From a virus: a stretch of DNA of 23,021 nucleotides. Below the pieces are notes generated by a model, which was not told the origin of the DNA, searched no databases, and worked only from the letters and a program-made list of their open reading frames with translations. The stretch lies in the IMG/VR virus record IMGVR_UViG_3300024262_000257, positions 1 through 23,021 of that record. One strand, given 5' to 3'. The position numbers and the translations under genes were made by a program. Numbering within the stretch: position 1 is the first letter of the stretch; each line of letters opens with the position of its first letter. Shown piece by piece: positions 5,810 through 16,992 of this stretch.

Positions 5810-6610
5810 TTAGTTTGGATCAACTACACCAGATGGTAAGTAATATTGAATTCTGACTCCAGCAGCTCCGCCAGTTACGCCAGACGCTGCAGCATATCCG
5901 CCGCCGCCCCCTGATTGATCAGAAGTTGCGTTCGCGCCATTTGCAACTCCGCCGCCACCGCCGCCTTGTGAATTTTTATCGGCCCCTAGACCTCGCCCGC
6001 CACGACCGCTGTACCCTGTTCCGCCTGCCCCGCCAGAAACATAGTTAATACCAGTGTCGTCACTTTCGCGTCCAGCACCACCTTGTCCACCGCACGACCC
6101 AACGCCAATTATCGTTGACGCTATAGTAAAGCCGCCACCGTCTCCACCTCCGCCGCCAAGACCCCCGGCGCCACCGGCCAGGCCAGTAAGGACAGAGTTG
6201 AAGTCAGCAGTCGTTGAAATAGTTATCGCATAGGAGACGCCTGGAACGACTTGAACCTCTGCAAACGCAGCGCCGCCGCCACCGCCGCCACCATAGTAGT
6301 TAGACGTTGATCCTGCCCCGCCTGCCCCGCAGACTAAAACATATGCGGTTGTAACTTCGTCGGGTGCCTCCCATGTATCAGTAGAAGAATACTCTTGCGT
6401 CGTTACTGTTCCCTGATTGAGAACTGCTCCCCTGATGTAAACGCTGCTAAACGGGTATGAAGATGTTCCGGCATCGCCCGCCCCTGCCTCTGGAACGCCA
6501 GACGCATTTCTAGGTACAATGTCACCAATTAAAGCTTCTTTATATTGGTTAGGGTCGGTAACGTTTATTACTTCGCCGTTCGATTTTGTTACTAGGTTAT
6601 TTGTGCCCAT
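5810..6610 (-). CDS. Glycine-rich tail-tip adhesin
   Basis: The 266-residue protein has a non-repetitive N-terminal ~75 residues. A 'TWEAPDEVTTAYVLVCGAGG' entry follows, the typical start of the phage glycine-rich domain (xF-x-P-x-GVT-x-v-x-v-x-x-x-GGGGGG). Residues ~98-250 contain at least seven runs of four to eight glycines (YYGGGGGGGAAF, LGGGGGDGGG, QGGGGGGV, SGGGGGY). In the T-even-type adhesin gp38 of Salmonella phage S16, such runs form polyglycine-II helices that present variable receptor-binding loops. The same role is likely here. It starts at a TAATG overlap with the upstream tail gene and lies beside the long fibre gene, so it probably works at the tail tip. Confidence 0.75.
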   Translation of the reverse strand: MGTNNLVTKSNGEVINVTDPNQYKEALIGDIVPRNASGVPEAGAGDAGTSSYPFSSVYIRGAVLNQGTVTTQEYSSTDTWEAPDEVTTAYVLVCGAGGAGSTSNYYGGGGGGGAAFAEVQVVPGVSYAITISTTADFNSVLTGLAGGAGGLGGGGGDGGGFTIASTIIGVGSCGGQGGAGRESDDTGINYVSGGAGGTGYSGRGGRGLGADKNSQGGGGGGVANGANATSDQSGGGGGYAAASGVTGGAAGVRIQYYLPSGVVDPN

Positions 6611-11899: not shown

Positions 11900-12343
11900 C
11901 TAATGAAACTCGTTGTATTTTAGTTCAAAATCAACGGTCGTTGTTAAATATTTAATCTTCTCAACCTCAAGAAGCGTTATGCCGCTATCACCTGAAAAAT
12001 CTACATTTGTTACTGATTGTTTTAAGCTTGGATCTGTTTTTATTGCCTTAACAAGTGCCAGCGATTCAGTGAATAATACCTTTTCGGTTGCTACTCTTGA
12101 GGATGACTGAAGATCTGTGTCATATATTCGCTTAGTTAATTTAACCGATACTGATCTTGATGCCGTTACTGCTACATTGTATCCAAGAGCAATTACGTCA
12201 GCACTACCAGCAATAACTCCATAACCATTTTTAAGATAAACATCAGTGTTGTCAGTTAGCTCGTATGGATTAGGTAGTATGGTTTTTGTATCATACGCCG
12301 TTTCGATAACTGTTCTTATATAAGCTAGTATCTCGTTAATCAT
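11900..12343 (-). CDS. Tail terminator or completion-like protein
   Basis: The 147-residue protein is encoded immediately upstream of the tail tube gene, the place of the tail terminator (lambda gpU type). It has a helix at the start (MINEILAYIRTVIETAYDTK), then strands (YGVIAGSADVIALGYNVAVTASRSVSVKL), a helix, and strands at the end (YLTTTVDFELKYNEFH). That αβ order fits the terminator fold. The start ATG overlaps the previous stop (ATGA). Sequence alone does not prove the family. Confidence 0.6.
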   Translation of the reverse strand: MINEILAYIRTVIETAYDTKTILPNPYELTDNTDVYLKNGYGVIAGSADVIALGYNVAVTASRSVSVKLTKRIYDTDLQSSSRVATEKVLFTESLALVKAIKTDPSLKQSVTNVDFSGDSGITLLEVEKIKYLTTTVDFELKYNEFH

Positions 12344-13137
12344 CTTATTAGCTTCCCTTGTGATGCTGATCTCTCGCCAGCGTCCGCTCTACCGTCACCA
12401 TTTAGATCAATAGCTGGCTTAACTGTTTTTAATCGAGCATAAAACTCTTTCTTGGCAGCTTCTTTTTGATCGATATAAGCGTCGCCTAATTCATTAAATA
12501 TCATTGCAGCTACTTTTTGAACCGCTGCCGGCCGGTAGTCAGTTCTTAAAAGTAATTGGCTATCGTCCTGGATGAGCTCTCTTGACTGCAATTCATTGAT
12601 GATAATCTCTGAAGCCCTTACATGTTTATTCATATAATCAGTAACGCCAAGAGCTGTCTTTACTCCGGTTGTTGTTAAGTCGTAGAACTCATCTTCTAAG
12701 TCTTCGTCCTTGCTAAACAAGCTACCAATCCAATTGATTTCTAACCCGTCAGTAATTCCAGTAAATGTGATTTTAGTCCAATACCTACCAAAGATTCTAA
12801 TGTCATCGAAATCTGTCGCTGCTGTCATATCGTCGGTGTCTACTCGACTCCATCCCTCGTCTGGGTCCGGTGTCCAATGTAAGAAACCTGATTGCGTTGC
12901 GCCATATGTTTCATCGATCTTGTCGGCAACCTCTGAAAATTCTGATCCATCCCATAATTCAATTTTATAAGATCGAGCCGAAGTCTCCGGTGTTGTTATA
13001 TCGAAATAGATATGATTCATTTTATACAATGAGCTTATATATAAGGCTTTAGTGTCGTCAGCTATCGTGACTGTGTTGCCGTGATAGTCGTTGAGCTCTC
13101 TTGTGTGGTCAGTTGTTCCTAATATTATTCTATTCAT
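12340..13137 (-). CDS. Head-tail connector-like protein with EF-hand loop
   Basis: The 265-residue protein has two parts. Residues 1-145 form a β-sandwich (ALYISSLYKMNHIYFDITT, SYKIELWDG, FGRYWTKITFTG). Residues 155-235 are helical (HVRASEIIINELQSRELI and further), like gp6/gp15-type connector or adaptor proteins of the neck. At 244-255 lies D-L-N-G-D-G-R-A-D-A-G-E, a perfect calcium-binding EF-hand/dockerin loop with ligands at positions 1, 3, 5, 9 and 12. It overlaps neighbours on both sides (8 and 4 nt). The connector call rests on location and helix pattern. A structural neck protein of another type is possible. Confidence 0.55.
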   Translation of the reverse strand: MNRIILGTTDHTRELNDYHGNTVTIADDTKALYISSLYKMNHIYFDITTPETSARSYKIELWDGSEFSEVADKIDETYGATQSGFLHWTPDPDEGWSRVDTDDMTAATDFDDIRIFGRYWTKITFTGITDGLEINWIGSLFSKDEDLEDEFYDLTTTGVKTALGVTDYMNKHVRASEIIINELQSRELIQDDSQLLLRTDYRPAAVQKVAAMIFNELGDAYIDQKEAAKKEFYARLKTVKPAIDLNGDGRADAGERSASQGKLIR

Positions 13138-13348
13138 TTTCGCTCCATGCGCTACCTTTTACTATTTCTAATATTTTAGCATGTGTAAACTTAGTATAAC
13201 CATACATTGAATTTGGAAATTGCACAGGGAATTTTAATATTGCAATGGCGCCATCTAGAGAATATCTAATGCTGGATGCGTTCATGCACGACTCGCCAAC
13301 CATATCCTGTGTTATTTCTTCCGTTATTAAGACACAATAAGTTATCAT
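13130..13348 (-). CDS. Small 'TQDM' domain protein, third copy
   Basis: The 72-residue protein begins MITYCVLITEEITQDMVGES, matching the start of two neighbouring genes (YFVVDRADLTQDM and YYVILKADLTQEM). It also shares the later pattern of a strand-forming DG-x-x-x-IL-KF/Y stretch and a FxxY/YxxF patch. It lacks the linked lectin module of its neighbour. Function is unknown. Being flanked by overlapping neck genes, it is likely a virion or assembly protein. Starts at an ATGA overlap. Confidence 0.6.
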   Translation of the reverse strand: MITYCVLITEEITQDMVGESCMNASSIRYSLDGAIAILKFPVQFPNSMYGYTKFTHAKILEIVKGSAWSENE

Positions 13349-14538
13349 GATATGTCTCCAGCGGAAAAGTTATAAGCCGTCAGATCATAGCTACCGGCGA
13401 TATCTTCAATTAAGGATGTTGTATCATTATCCGACTCTCCAAACGTCCAATGCGCCAGCACTGTTAATCCGTCAATGTCAGAAATATCTTTATAGTCCCC
13501 GGAGTTGTATAGTGCCGATATCTCGCTTGCCGTCATTGCTTCTCTGACAATAAACATGTCAAGCAATTTTGCGCCGGTCCAGTTCGCTATTGCCCTCTCG
13601 ATTCCAACATAAGCTATCCACGCGTCAACCCCATCTTCAATTGTTGCCGCCGCCGTTGCCTCTGATGTTCCAGACAAGAGCGTTCCATTTTTATAGATCT
13701 TTAGTCTGCTGCCCCCTGTCTCTGTTCCGTCATAAACTCCAGTAAATAGATATTCTCCACTAGACGCCGTGCACCCATGCGCACTATAGGTTCCACCCCC
13801 GCCGGCCCTGAAATATATAGAGGCGTTGAATCTTAGAAAAGAAACGACATCGGGAGCGACCCCTATTTTGCTAAAGTAGTATTCAAAATCGTCAGCGGTG
13901 GCGTCAAAATCAAGCATCACACCAAAAGTAAACGATGATTCGCCGTCAAATATTTCCATGCTTTCGTTTTTTGCATACGTTGTTACGCCGTCGAACTGAT
14001 AACCAGTATCGTATGTCCACGCCGAGGTTACATCAATTGTAAATTCTTCTTCGTAGTACAGTTCTGTAGTGTTGTTTGTTACCCTAATTGTAACATCGTG
14101 AGACCCATCAGCAGAAAAATCAAGGGCTCCGCCAACCTCTAATGTGGTCCCGTCTATTTGGAACTTGCTATCAGCGTCGGTAGTTATTGTATAGGTATGG
14201 GTTCCGTCCTCTGCGTCAGTTGCAGACAACGTACCAATCGCAGTGCCAACCGTTGCGGACTCTATAATCGTAGACACTGTTAGCGCGATATCAGTCGGAG
14301 ACGCATAAACGAAACCATTTGAGGGTGTCGACAAATATGTTGCTATTGTTGTTTCTGTGTAAACGTCATAAGCAGACGAAAATAATGTTGATGGTATGTT
14401 TGCCGGGTCTACTGGATATATAACCTTGGTTCCGGCTATATTTTGCGTGAGCTTATATGGATTCTTCTCATGGCATCTGTCCATCATTTCTTGTGTTAGA
14501 TCAGCCTTCAATATAACATAGTATTTAAGCCACGACAT
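13345..14538 (-). CDS. Virion lectin-like protein: 'TQDM' domain, cadherin-like domain, LamG-like domain
   Basis: The 397-residue protein is a three-part mosaic. Residues 1-80 are the 'TQDM' domain (SWLKYYVILKADLTQEMMD). Residues 81-172 resemble a cadherin-like β-domain (VGTAIGTLSATDAEDGTHTY, KFQIDGTTLEVGGALDFSAD, SHDVTIRV). Residues 175-397 resemble a concanavalin/laminin-G fold (YQFDGVTTYAKN, FTFGVMLDFD, SGEYLFTGVYDGTE, SEISALYNSGDYKD, LAHWTFGE). The last two domain types recur in the gene at 14782-15849. I chose ATG at 14538: GAGG lies 9 nt upstream of it but directly abuts the ATG at 14547. Such domains bind glycans or proteins on surfaces. On a head or neck they could aid attachment. Confidence 0.7.
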   Translation of the reverse strand: MSWLKYYVILKADLTQEMMDRCHEKNPYKLTQNIAGTKVIYPVDPANIPSTLFSSAYDVYTETTIATYLSTPSNGFVYASPTDIALTVSTIIESATVGTAIGTLSATDAEDGTHTYTITTDADSKFQIDGTTLEVGGALDFSADGSHDVTIRVTNNTTELYYEEEFTIDVTSAWTYDTGYQFDGVTTYAKNESMEIFDGESSFTFGVMLDFDATADDFEYYFSKIGVAPDVVSFLRFNASIYFRAGGGGTYSAHGCTASSGEYLFTGVYDGTETGGSRLKIYKNGTLLSGTSEATAAATIEDGVDAWIAYVGIERAIANWTGAKLLDMFIVREAMTASEISALYNSGDYKDISDIDGLTVLAHWTFGESDNDTTSLIEDIAGSYDLTAYNFSAGDIS

Positions 14539-14785
14539 TTGTATCATCCTCTAAAAAACCATTATCCACATCGGATATGTGCTCAAGCATTTGCGCCTCA
14601 GTCATAGGCTCATAATATTTTGAAAACAATTCAGCCGGCACGTCTTCACAACTATATTTTAATAAAATCTTCTCGCCATCCGTACTGACTCTTCTGCAGT
14701 AGGGGTTATTACACTCGCGCGGCAAAGACTTGTCTAGCATGTCCTGCGTAAGATCGGCCCTGTCAACAACAAAATATCCGGTCAT
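14525..14785 (-). CDS. Small 'TQDM' domain protein, first copy
   Basis: The 86-residue protein starts MTGYFVVDRADLTQDMLDKS and contains the related stretches VSTDGEKILLKYSCEDVPAE and LFSKYYEPMTEAQM. It aligns with the N-terminal domain of the next gene (LFSSAYDVYTETTI at the same place). Two Cys (NNPYC, YSC) are not conserved in the copies. It starts at an ATGA overlap with the upstream lectin gene and overlaps the next gene by 14 nt. It is likely a structural or assembly protein of unknown function. Confidence 0.6.
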   Translation of the reverse strand: MTGYFVVDRADLTQDMLDKSLPRECNNPYCRRVSTDGEKILLKYSCEDVPAELFSKYYEPMTEAQMLEHISDVDNGFLEDDTNVVA

Positions 14786-15849
14786 ACAACGTCCCCACTG
14801 AGATTAGATGAGTCCATATTGTACGAAGTAAGATCATCCGAACCGACGTTATCTGTTATTGTCGGAATCGTATCATTATCAAATCTATACCATGACTGTA
14901 AATTAGATGCTGCGCTGTGCTCGCTGTAATCATATACTACACCAGCGTTGTATAACTCCGTTACTTCTGACTGCGTAAGTGCCTTGTCCCAAACTGTTAT
15001 TTCATCCATGTTTCCGCTGAAAAATCCAAATGAATTATTCCGCTGACCAATATAAAACGGTTGCCCGAAAAGCATTGTTCCGGATAGTGCCCCGCTTGGC
15101 GATGTACTGTTTTTAACTGCGTTCTTGTAAACACTTGCACCAGATATATTCGAAGCGCCAGAGTACGTAAAGCAAACAAATTGCCACGACCCTGCAGTCA
15201 ACACTGTATTAAACGTGTGAGATGTGCTTGTGGTGGCCCGCATTTGAAGATATAACGCGCCAGTAGTTGCATTCGATTGAAGCATATATCCGTTCACGCT
15301 TGCGTTAACCGTTGCCTTTGAAAAAAGAATACGAGCCGCTGCAATATTATCTGGCTTTATCCACATACAAATAGAGAAAGCGTTTGCTATGTCATATTTA
15401 TGTATGTCGCCACCCGATAAATACTCGTCAATTCCATTCATTAACACTGAAGTGGTATTCGGGGTCAAGACCGTTATTGTGAACGCTTGTGATATTGAAT
15501 ATCCAAACTCGTTAACCGTAGTTATTGTGACTAAGTGTGTTCCCTTCGTAACAGAGCTGACCGAATCGCTAAGAATTAAATAGCTGATATCGCCGGATTC
15601 TATTGCGAACTTATTGTCTGGGTCGTTTGTTATAGATAACGTTTGCGAAGTAGCAGACGAATCAACGACAGTTATGATGCCAACCCTGTCATCGGCGACA
15701 GACCCAGATGATATGCTAGTGCTTGAAAGTTGTATTTCGGTTGGGGCAGCGACTACCTTAATTTTCAAGTAGTAGTCACTCTTGTCACCAGCAGTCATTT
15801 CTTGCGCAGACTTTCTCATTGCCTCTAAACCGTGATCTGAAACTGACAT
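14782..15849 (-). CDS. Virion lectin-like protein: cadherin-like plus LamG-like domains
   Basis: The 355-residue protein has a short 35-residue N-terminus (MSVSDHGLEAMRKSAQEM). A cadherin-like β-domain follows at 36-128 (PTEIQLSSTSISSGS, NKFAIESGDI, THLVTITT). A LamG/concanavalin-like domain fills 133-355 (MNGIDEYLSG, FSICMWIKPDNI, GSWQFVCFTYSG, FYIGQRNNSFGFFSGNMDEI, VTELYNAGVVYDYSE, LQSWYRFD). It ends DDLTSYNMDSSNLSGDVV, parallel to the end of its paralogue (YDLTAYNFSAGDIS). It therefore shares two domains with the gene at 13345-14538 but lacks the 'TQDM' domain, which is encoded by the separate gene just downstream. A role on the virion surface is inferred. Confidence 0.7.
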   Translation of the reverse strand: MSVSDHGLEAMRKSAQEMTAGDKSDYYLKIKVVAAPTEIQLSSTSISSGSVADDRVGIITVVDSSATSQTLSITNDPDNKFAIESGDISYLILSDSVSSVTKGTHLVTITTVNEFGYSISQAFTITVLTPNTTSVLMNGIDEYLSGGDIHKYDIANAFSICMWIKPDNIAAARILFSKATVNASVNGYMLQSNATTGALYLQMRATTSTSHTFNTVLTAGSWQFVCFTYSGASNISGASVYKNAVKNSTSPSGALSGTMLFGQPFYIGQRNNSFGFFSGNMDEITVWDKALTQSEVTELYNAGVVYDYSEHSAASNLQSWYRFDNDTIPTITDNVGSDDLTSYNMDSSNLSGDVV

Positions 15850-15883
15850 CCTTGTCCCTCGTCTAAACTATTATTGGGCCAAC

Positions 15884-16786
15884 TTAACTTACAGTGCTTG
15901 GCTCTATTGTAATATCTGCTGGTGAGCTTGAAGCTAATGGGTAATTCTCATAACCCGCTTTAGCTGATCCATCAGTAGCAGTTGCTAAAATACTTCCGGC
16001 GCCTGAGTCATCAGTACTTTTTACAGATGCGTCAGTTGAATCGCCAATATCGTCAGCCGTTGCTGTAACCGTTCCGTCACCATTGTCAACAAAAGATATA
16101 TCCGTTGCGCTAACCGCTGCAAGTAATGACCCGCCAACAATCGCTGTTGTTGCCAAAGAACCCGCTGTAATTGTTCCAACTGTTATGCTCCCCGCTGCGC
16201 TATCGTCTGATTTCTTAGTTACTGCATCAGTTACAACGCCAACATTATCAACAACAACTGTTAATGTTCCATCTGAATTATCAGTGAAACTAACGTCAGT
16301 TACATTTCCGTTAAGTGCTGTGAAAGCGAGCGTTGCGTTTTGAGCCGCTGTTCCACCCGTTACGATATCAACTTCTATTTGATTATCCGAACCAGTATAC
16401 AAAGCACCCGTTGGGACTGTTGTATCTGCGTCAATGTCTAAATTAACTGCATAAGATGCATCGCTATCATTGTAGATCATTATGTAATCGCCTTGAGTAG
16501 CTGCCGAAGTAGCTGGGAAGGTTAGAACATAAGTCTCTGCTACTGCAGTAGTGTAAGCCAGCGTTGCTTGCTCATCAGATGCGGCATATAAAGCACCCGT
16601 TGGTGCAGTTCCGTCGCCGTCAATATCGATAAATGCTGAGACATAATTTCCTGCAGCATTGTAAATGTTTATGTAATCGCCCTGAGTAGCGGAGCCAACC
16701 GCTGGCATTGTTACTAAATCGCTTTCTCTTGTTCCGGCTTCAAACTCTAACGCGCCTACCGATTGAGAACCTTTAAATCTGCTCAT
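15884..16786 (-). CDS. Repeat-built head or neck structural protein
   Basis: The 300-residue protein contains two internal duplications. The first pair is ATQGDYINIYNAAGNY with IDIDGDGTAPTGALY, and ATQGDYIMIYNDSDASY with LDIDADTTVPTGALY (residues about 32-145). The second pair is TDVSFTDNSDGTLTVVVD with DDSAAGSITV, and TDISFVDNGDGTVTATAD with DDSGAGSILA (about 165-280). The 'GDYI-x-I then D-x-D-x-x-x-x-PTGA-y' unit is seen in other phage and bacterial surface proteins. Start: AGGAG at 16792-16796 is 5 nt before ATG 16786, so the ATG at 16861 is not used. It lies after a 65-aa gene whose stop overlaps this ribosome site. A capsid fibre or decoration role is likely. Confidence 0.65.
   Translation of the reverse strand: MSRFKGSQSVGALEFEAGTRESDLVTMPAVGSATQGDYINIYNAAGNYVSAFIDIDGDGTAPTGALYAASDEQATLAYTTAVAETYVLTFPATSAATQGDYIMIYNDSDASYAVNLDIDADTTVPTGALYTGSDNQIEVDIVTGGTAAQNATLAFTALNGNVTDVSFTDNSDGTLTVVVDNVGVVTDAVTKKSDDSAAGSITVGTITAGSLATTAIVGGSLLAAVSATDISFVDNGDGTVTATADDIGDSTDASVKSTDDSGAGSILATATDGSAKAGYENYPLASSSPADITIEPSTVS
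16322..16692 (-). repeat. Diverged internal tandem duplication of about 190 nt in the structural protein gene
   Basis: The strings TATGTAATCGCC(T/C)TGAGTAGC and (A/T)AAAGCACCCGTTGG each occur twice about 190 nt apart (near 16398/16588 and 16481/16670). They encode the two GDYI...PTGALY units. Copies have diverged but DNA identity remains visible, so the duplication is fairly recent or maintained by recombination. Confidence 0.6.
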
Positions 16787-16794
16787 ATGAACTC

Positions 16795-16992
16795 CTAATC
16801 TAAATCCCCAAAGGGCATTTCTTTGTTTAAATCTTCTGGCAAGACAAACCATAAGTGCCATTTCTTTTGTACAAATGTTGGATTGCCTTTAATTTCTACT
16901 TTGTAGCCAATGAGCTTATTCAAATATTCAAGGATAGTGTCAGGATTTGAACTACTGATATACCTTAATCTAGTTTGAATTACTTCAGTCAT
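16795..16992 (-). CDS. Small hypothetical virion-cluster protein
   Basis: The 65-residue protein starts MTEVIQTRLRYISSSNPDTI, with YLNKLIGYKVEIKGNPTFV and KKWHLWFVLPEDLN following, a compact αβ pattern. The ribosome site is AGGTGG 5 nt upstream. It lies just downstream of a strong terminator, and its stop TAG falls within the ribosome site of the next gene. Similar short αβ proteins exist in phage head clusters, but no function is known to me. Confidence 0.55.
   Translation of the reverse strand: MTEVIQTRLRYISSSNPDTILEYLNKLIGYKVEIKGNPTFVQKKWHLWFVLPEDLNKEMPFGDLD

Follow-up and report, generated by a model that had tools for sequence, protein, structure and literature searches.

What are the small proteins whose genes alternate with lectin genes in the structural module of a tailed phage, and what might they do there? 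The stretch of DNA analyzed here (hereafter the window) covers an entire virus record, 23,021 bases long. Its minus strand encodes a structural module of a tailed phage, in which the genes run in the order terminase, portal, scaffold-like protein, major capsid protein, a block of genes for decoration proteins and lectins, connector, tail tube and tape measure; other than for the capsid and the lectins, these names represent our reading of the sequences. Within the lectin block the local order is lectin A, T1, a fusion of T2 with lectin B, and T3 (Table 1). The first-pass annotation had proposed that a small domain recurs in three successive genes of this block, once fused to lectin modules, and that it might dock the lectins to the head or neck of the virion.

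Table 1. Genes and domains of the lectin block in the window, and the equivalent gene pairs recovered from other viral contigs by the motif scan
Record	Feature	Position	Strand	Junction	Support
Window	Lectin A, 355 aa, LamG domain; T1 is its putative partner gene	14782..15849	-		PF13385, E 2.8e-22
Window	T1, standalone TQ-domain protein, 86 aa	14525..14785	-	start overlaps lectin A stop by 4 bp (ATGA)	
Window	Fusion gene, 397 aa: T2 + cadherin-like + LamG-like (lectin B)	13345..14538	-		
Window	T2, TQ domain, N-terminal ~76 residues of the fusion	14311..14538	-		homology to T1; outside profile
Window	Cadherin-like domain of the fusion, residues 90-170	14029..14271	-		Pfam Cadherin, 8.5e-5 (under the Pfam cut-off)
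Window	LamG/ConA-like domain of the fusion, residues 181-396	13351..13998	-		local LamG HMM, E 7e-14
Window	T3, standalone TQ-domain protein, 72 aa	13130..13348	-	4-bp ATGA overlap with the fusion gene	
Window	Next structural gene downstream	12340..13137	-	overlaps T3 by 8 bp	
L025	TQ gene after LamG gene			gap +9 bp	PF13385, 2e-25
L030 group	TQ gene after LamG gene			-4 bp	4.5e-12, partial frame
L033	TQ gene after LamG gene			-4 bp	local LamG HMM, 1.2e-8
L083	TQ gene after LamG gene			-4 bp	LamG, 6e-8
L109	TQ gene after LamG gene			-4 bp	LamG, 7e-21

A virus-borne family of small alpha/beta proteins

The motif reported for the three genes is indeed found in each of them: its degenerate DNA form has exactly three matches in the window, all on the minus strand (13301-13339, 14485-14523 and 14738-14776), whereas none is expected, and none was seen, in shuffled sequence. 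When T1 is compared with the rest of the record it retrieves T2 (34% identity, E 5.4e-11) and T3 (34% identity, E 0.0025). A hidden Markov model of five members from outside the window recovers all three segments among 21,801 six-frame ORFs (T3, E 1.9e-11; T1, E 4.0e-6; T2, E 1.7e-5), with the window copies scoring 25-44 bits and the best motif-bearing non-member 17.9 bits. The latter, a 42-aa frame in L086, was omitted from the family as a likely chance match. With an eight-member profile every member scores at least 81 bits and the top motif-bearing non-member 18. When everything through the TQxM element is removed from the outside profile, T3 still ranks first (E 2.6e-5; next non-member E 1), and T1 and T2 are not recovered. 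The proposed relationship of the three segments is thus upheld by a profile comparison that draws on outside members alone, and, by these sequence criteria, T1, T2 and T3 are homologous. They belong to one virus-borne family of small alpha/beta proteins, which we here name the TQ proteins.

The TQ proteins are about 70-114 aa long and are defined by a start of the form Y-x-[VIL]-x4-[DE]-x-T-Q-x-M, followed by R/L-x-S-x-[DG]..K..[LIV]K[YFW]..P..Y[TN]..[EQ]I.....W. T1 and T3 fit this pattern nearly throughout and T2 chiefly at its start; likewise, a 'DG-IL-K' stretch that had been described as common to the three is clear in T1 and T3 and weak in T2 (AGTKVIYPV). The TQxM element is degenerate in the members from the phages S-SKS1 and immuto and from G050 (see below). 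The family is strongly diverged (11-50% identity), with conservation centered on the Y, TQxM, R-S-DG, P and terminal W residues.

Among the libraries scanned (Pfam, PHROGs, NCBIfam and PDB sequences) the family is absent, and we found neither a paper describing the small TQ proteins nor one on the virion proteomics of immuto. A small partner encoded after a fibre gene is already known as a kind of thing; the TQ family, its tie to LamG lectins and its fused form are, as far as could be tested, new.

No TQ member was recovered by HMM searches of 398 Pseudomonadota and 395 Bacteroidota genomes; the sole match, in G750, was rejected because its frame resembles a PAS-type histidine kinase. Scanning genome contigs from 84,980 species for the motif yielded 23 stretches, none of them a member, and a phenylalanine variant of the motif yielded 34 stretches, again with no member. 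Searches with single proteins returned no credible relatives other than those in S-SKS1 and immuto, as the family is too diverged for BLAST to detect the rest. The terminase-related viruses L004-L013 gave no profile match, while a search of that kind with a later profile does detect the records bearing members.

Genomic linkage to LamG lectins

Degenerate DNA versions of the motif were used to search public viral contigs, with lectins playing no part in the selection. Most matches were chance frames; however, five lineages displayed a small ORF matching the family along its full length, namely L025, L030 (the same protein is also found in L027, L032 and L040), L033, L083 (the same protein also in L116 and L127) and L109. 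To these a similarity search with gene 223 of Flavobacterium phage immuto, and with this query alone, added SWZG_00004 of the Synechococcus phage S-SKS1, which the five-member profile detects at E 1.3e-11 and which lies 30 bp behind a 960-aa protein carrying five LamG stretches. Gene 223 of immuto is itself a distant member (E 3.4e-9), separated by 12 bp from the three consecutive LamG genes that precede it, and the G050 member, which has E 0.07 with the profile that gave immuto, is 50% identical to immuto 223 and lies 12 bp after a LamG gene. Since the immuto and G050 members were found in LamG neighborhoods, they are not independent and count for less.

A standalone TQ gene comes immediately after a LamG lectin gene in all eight lineages examined, and the two mostly overlap by 4 bp (ATGA). 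Lectin A is followed in this way by T1 and lectin B by T3 in the window, and the TQ genes of the seven other lineages occupy the equivalent position. A LamG domain is present in 3 of 41 control viral records, and the chance of all six motif-found lineages (window included) and S-SKS1 adjoining a lectin is of the order of 1e-12, a rough hand estimate that assumes one gene per kb. The linkage is one-way, in that LamG proteins lacking a TQ partner are found in many phages. The relationship to LamG/concanavalin A-like lectins (PF13385) pertains to lectins A and B and their counterparts in the seven other lineages, that is, to the partner and not to TQ itself. PHROG 347, labeled 'tail terminator', matches the LamG lectins of the window and of two relatives; this label is probably wrong there.

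The phages bearing the pair are of several kinds: L109 is T7-like with tail-tubular-like genes, the window and L025 are long-tailed with a tape measure, and immuto carries a tail sheath gene. In three lineages (the window, L033 and L109) the pair separates the capsid genes from the tail genes; L025 and immuto carry it amid tail or baseplate genes. Only the lectin/TQ pair is conserved, the flanking genes vary between lineages, and the pair behaves like a cassette. In L004 and L013 a gene similar to the structural gene downstream of T3 is found at the same place, and neither has a TQ match. In L004, L012 and L013 the slot between this gene and the major capsid gene (window 13130-16861) carries other proteins, some of them fibre-like, and gene exchange at this slot is probably frequent in the terminase-related viruses. 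As a separate observation, L083 has, two genes beyond its TQ gene, an ORF of 92 aa (L083:2060-2338, minus strand) that contains a TQ-like stretch, SYTEYTETDINEIV, scores about 10 bits against the TQ profiles and is possibly a very distant paralogue.

Predicted structure

An AlphaFold2 model of T1, computed from eight sequences, displays one compact small alpha/beta domain (pLDDT 76, pTM 0.63) with the elements E2-8, H14-19, E39-45, H51-54 and H63-71. Against the PDB its best Foldseek match has E 0.63, and the best VIA-align match, an RRM domain (Z 3.5, rmsd 3.3, 64 residues aligned), is under the meaningful level. The model of the fusion protein (pLDDT 50.8) is too poor to place T2 relative to the lectin.

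In BFVD, about a dozen nameless viral proteins of 67-98 residues match the T1 model with a probability of 0.77-1.00. Four of these (A0A516M3T4, A0A516LJK5, A0A218MN01 and A0A6J7WH26; Foldseek probability 0.95-1.00, TM 0.59-0.65) resemble the TQ proteins in size, differ in sequence (14-23% identity) and have no recorded name or function. These fold matches suggest that the TQ family is larger than sequence searches reveal, and going by the predicted fold it may reach beyond phages. The T1 fold is also matched, with a probability of 0.82, by the 72-aa A0A7M3UP30 of the Pyramimonas orientalis virus, an algal giant virus.

Probable duplication and fusion in the window

The T2-lectin B gene likely starts at the ATG at 14538 rather than at 14547, with a Shine-Dalgarno-like AGAGG 9 nt upstream. 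Its description as a fusion with lectin modules stands as to the fusion itself; the modules are one cadherin-like domain and one LamG domain, the latter without a match to Pfam LamG. In a tree of the family, T1 and T2 form a sister pair (local support 0.978), and T3 groups with the outside members with weak support. Residues 77-397 of lectin B align to residues 32-351 of lectin A (26% identity, E 2e-16), and the lectin part common to the two starts exactly where T2 ends. This alignment points to a duplication of the lectin together with its cadherin-like domain and to a joining of T2 precisely at the N-terminus, while the sisterhood of T1 and T2 favors reading T2 as a copy of the partner gene that became fused to the next lectin. 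The simplest account, drawn from the tree and the alignment, would start from two lectin+TQ units, in which T1 was duplicated and its extra copy became fused to the second lectin. Fission, which had been offered as the other possibility, is made less likely by the absence of a fused form from every outside lineage, where TQ is always a separate small protein encoded downstream and the lectins are without it. The proposal of a shared domain that was duplicated and then fused is therefore in agreement with both the T1/T2 relationship and the boundary of the lectin alignment.

Relationship to fibre chaperones

Small phage proteins encoded straight after fibre genes are known as fibre chaperones, for instance gp27 of phage V22 (PMC7289586). 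Some of these leave the fibre, as do T4 gp38 and V22 gp27, and others, such as Mu Tfa and S16 gp38, stay bound (PMC7289586, PMC9608196, PMC10579305). In gene position the TQ proteins correspond to these chaperones, lying directly downstream of a lectin that is the putative receptor-binding protein. Closest in setting are gp27 of the Alteromonas phage V22 and gp9 of A5 (DUF4376), which are likewise small, come from marine phages and lie directly downstream of the receptor-binding fibre gene (PMC7289586, PMC10579305). However, unlike the TQ proteins they have 195-239 aa and an alpha-helical body (DUF4376), and the TQ profile has no match anywhere in the V22 genome. Mu Tfa, T4 gp38, Pam3 gp25 and PF16778 ('Phage_tail_APC') are also, as is proposed for TQ, small fibre partners encoded downstream that feature a small fibre-binding domain. 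In Tfa and gp25, the latter of which forms a 3:3 complex, a fibre-binding N-terminal domain is combined with an alpha-helical trimerization domain (PMC9608196), whereas TQ is a single small domain. No match better than chance to the chaperone families (Tfa, gp38, PF16778 and DUF4376) was found for TQ in Pfam, PHROGs or NCBIfam. Hence, with neither a sequence match nor a trimerization domain, the TQ proteins are not members of the known chaperone families.

In S-SKS1, a PF16778/tail-fibre-assembly-like protein (L177:1565-2074) is encoded just upstream of the multi-LamG gene, with TQ just downstream, so that a single lectin has two distinct small candidate partners. In the tail block of the window, a glycine-rich protein (5810-6610, minus strand; GGGGGG and GGAGG runs) could be a glycine-rich fibre tip of the S16 gp38 or Pam3 gp24 sort.

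A proposed dedicated partner of the lectin

The gene order, the overlap of reading frames, the recurrence in unrelated genomic contexts and the natural fusion together point to a physical partnership of TQ with the lectin. From the observed homology, linkage and frame overlap we infer physical binding and an assembly function, and the balance tips slightly toward the TQ protein being a dedicated partner of the lectin, either a folding or assembly factor or a stable subunit. Under such a mechanism TQ would be made right after the lectin, bind it and be needed for its folding, oligomerization or stable incorporation, acting as an intermolecular assembly factor that is possibly retained as a subunit. 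In this phage the lectin+TQ unit would occur twice, with T1 duplicated and T2 turned into a covalent partner by its fusion to the N-terminus of lectin B. That fusion indicates that both parts can occupy one chain, and, as a departing chaperone would not obviously tolerate a permanent N-terminal fusion, a stable subunit fits better. Several points speak against the partner role. The many phage LamG proteins without TQ imply that LamG folding as such is independent of it. TQ bears no likeness in sequence or solved structure to any known chaperone, it is smaller than the known fibre chaperones (T4 gp38, 22.3 kDa; V22 gp27, 21.8 kDa; PMC7289586), and the T1 model is without a helical trimerization domain.

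We rank this role first, and a docking role second, because small proteins after fibre genes are known as fibre chaperones. That TQ is a virion docking or adaptor unit, joining the lectin to the capsid, neck or baseplate as a separate subunit or an N-terminal anchor, appears unlikely to us, if a serious contender. The TQ domain of the fusion is at the N-terminus, the usual site of fibre anchors, the pair is between major capsid and tail genes in three of the lineages, and the S-SKS1 lectin consists almost only of LamG repeats, leaving room for an adaptor. Yet the window fusion is the one case where TQ is N-terminal to a receptor-binding module, with no lectin elsewhere carrying it, and lectin B has both T2 and the following T3, which is redundant for a simple anchor. 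Further, the placement of the pair beside tail or baseplate genes in L025 and immuto makes one common docking site unlikely. Accordingly, the head or neck docking suggested by the first-pass annotation does not generalize, and an accessory or assembly role suits the gene order better.

It seems improbable that TQ instead occupies the lectin tip of mature virions, where it would act as a cap or co-receptor subunit and help set the host range. There are precedents in S16 gp38 and Mu Tfa, which remain on the fibre (PMC7289586), and divergence as strong as that of TQ is common in host-range parts; nevertheless, TQ shows no obvious receptor-binding loops, glycine-rich or otherwise, and its conserved residues appear structural. 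Least probable is that TQ is an unrelated small gene hitch-hiking beside lectins in a mobile host-recognition cassette, as, although LamG proteins do occur without TQ, the lectin-then-TQ order with its overlap or short gap recurs in eight lineages with differing neighbors and the TQ-lectin fusion is hard to account for without a functional link.

Beyond the dedicated-partner role itself, a broader reading, which we put forward tentatively and at somewhat under even chances, is that TQ represents a new class of lectin-assembly factors, borne in a two-gene cassette across several kinds of tailed phages (possibly also an algal giant virus), with the partner captured into the lectin chain in the window.

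Implications

Many environmental phages have LamG-type lectins in their structural proteins, probably as receptor-binding parts. If some of these lectins require a small neighboring partner, co-expression could make them workable in the laboratory. The natural fusion in the window, where a single chain contains both partner and lectin, offers a direct and testable case, and S-SKS1 and immuto, as isolated and sequenced phages, are suited to testing the role of TQ. If the partner reading is true, the TQ profile would serve as a marker of host-recognition lectin cassettes among the unnamed genes of phages.
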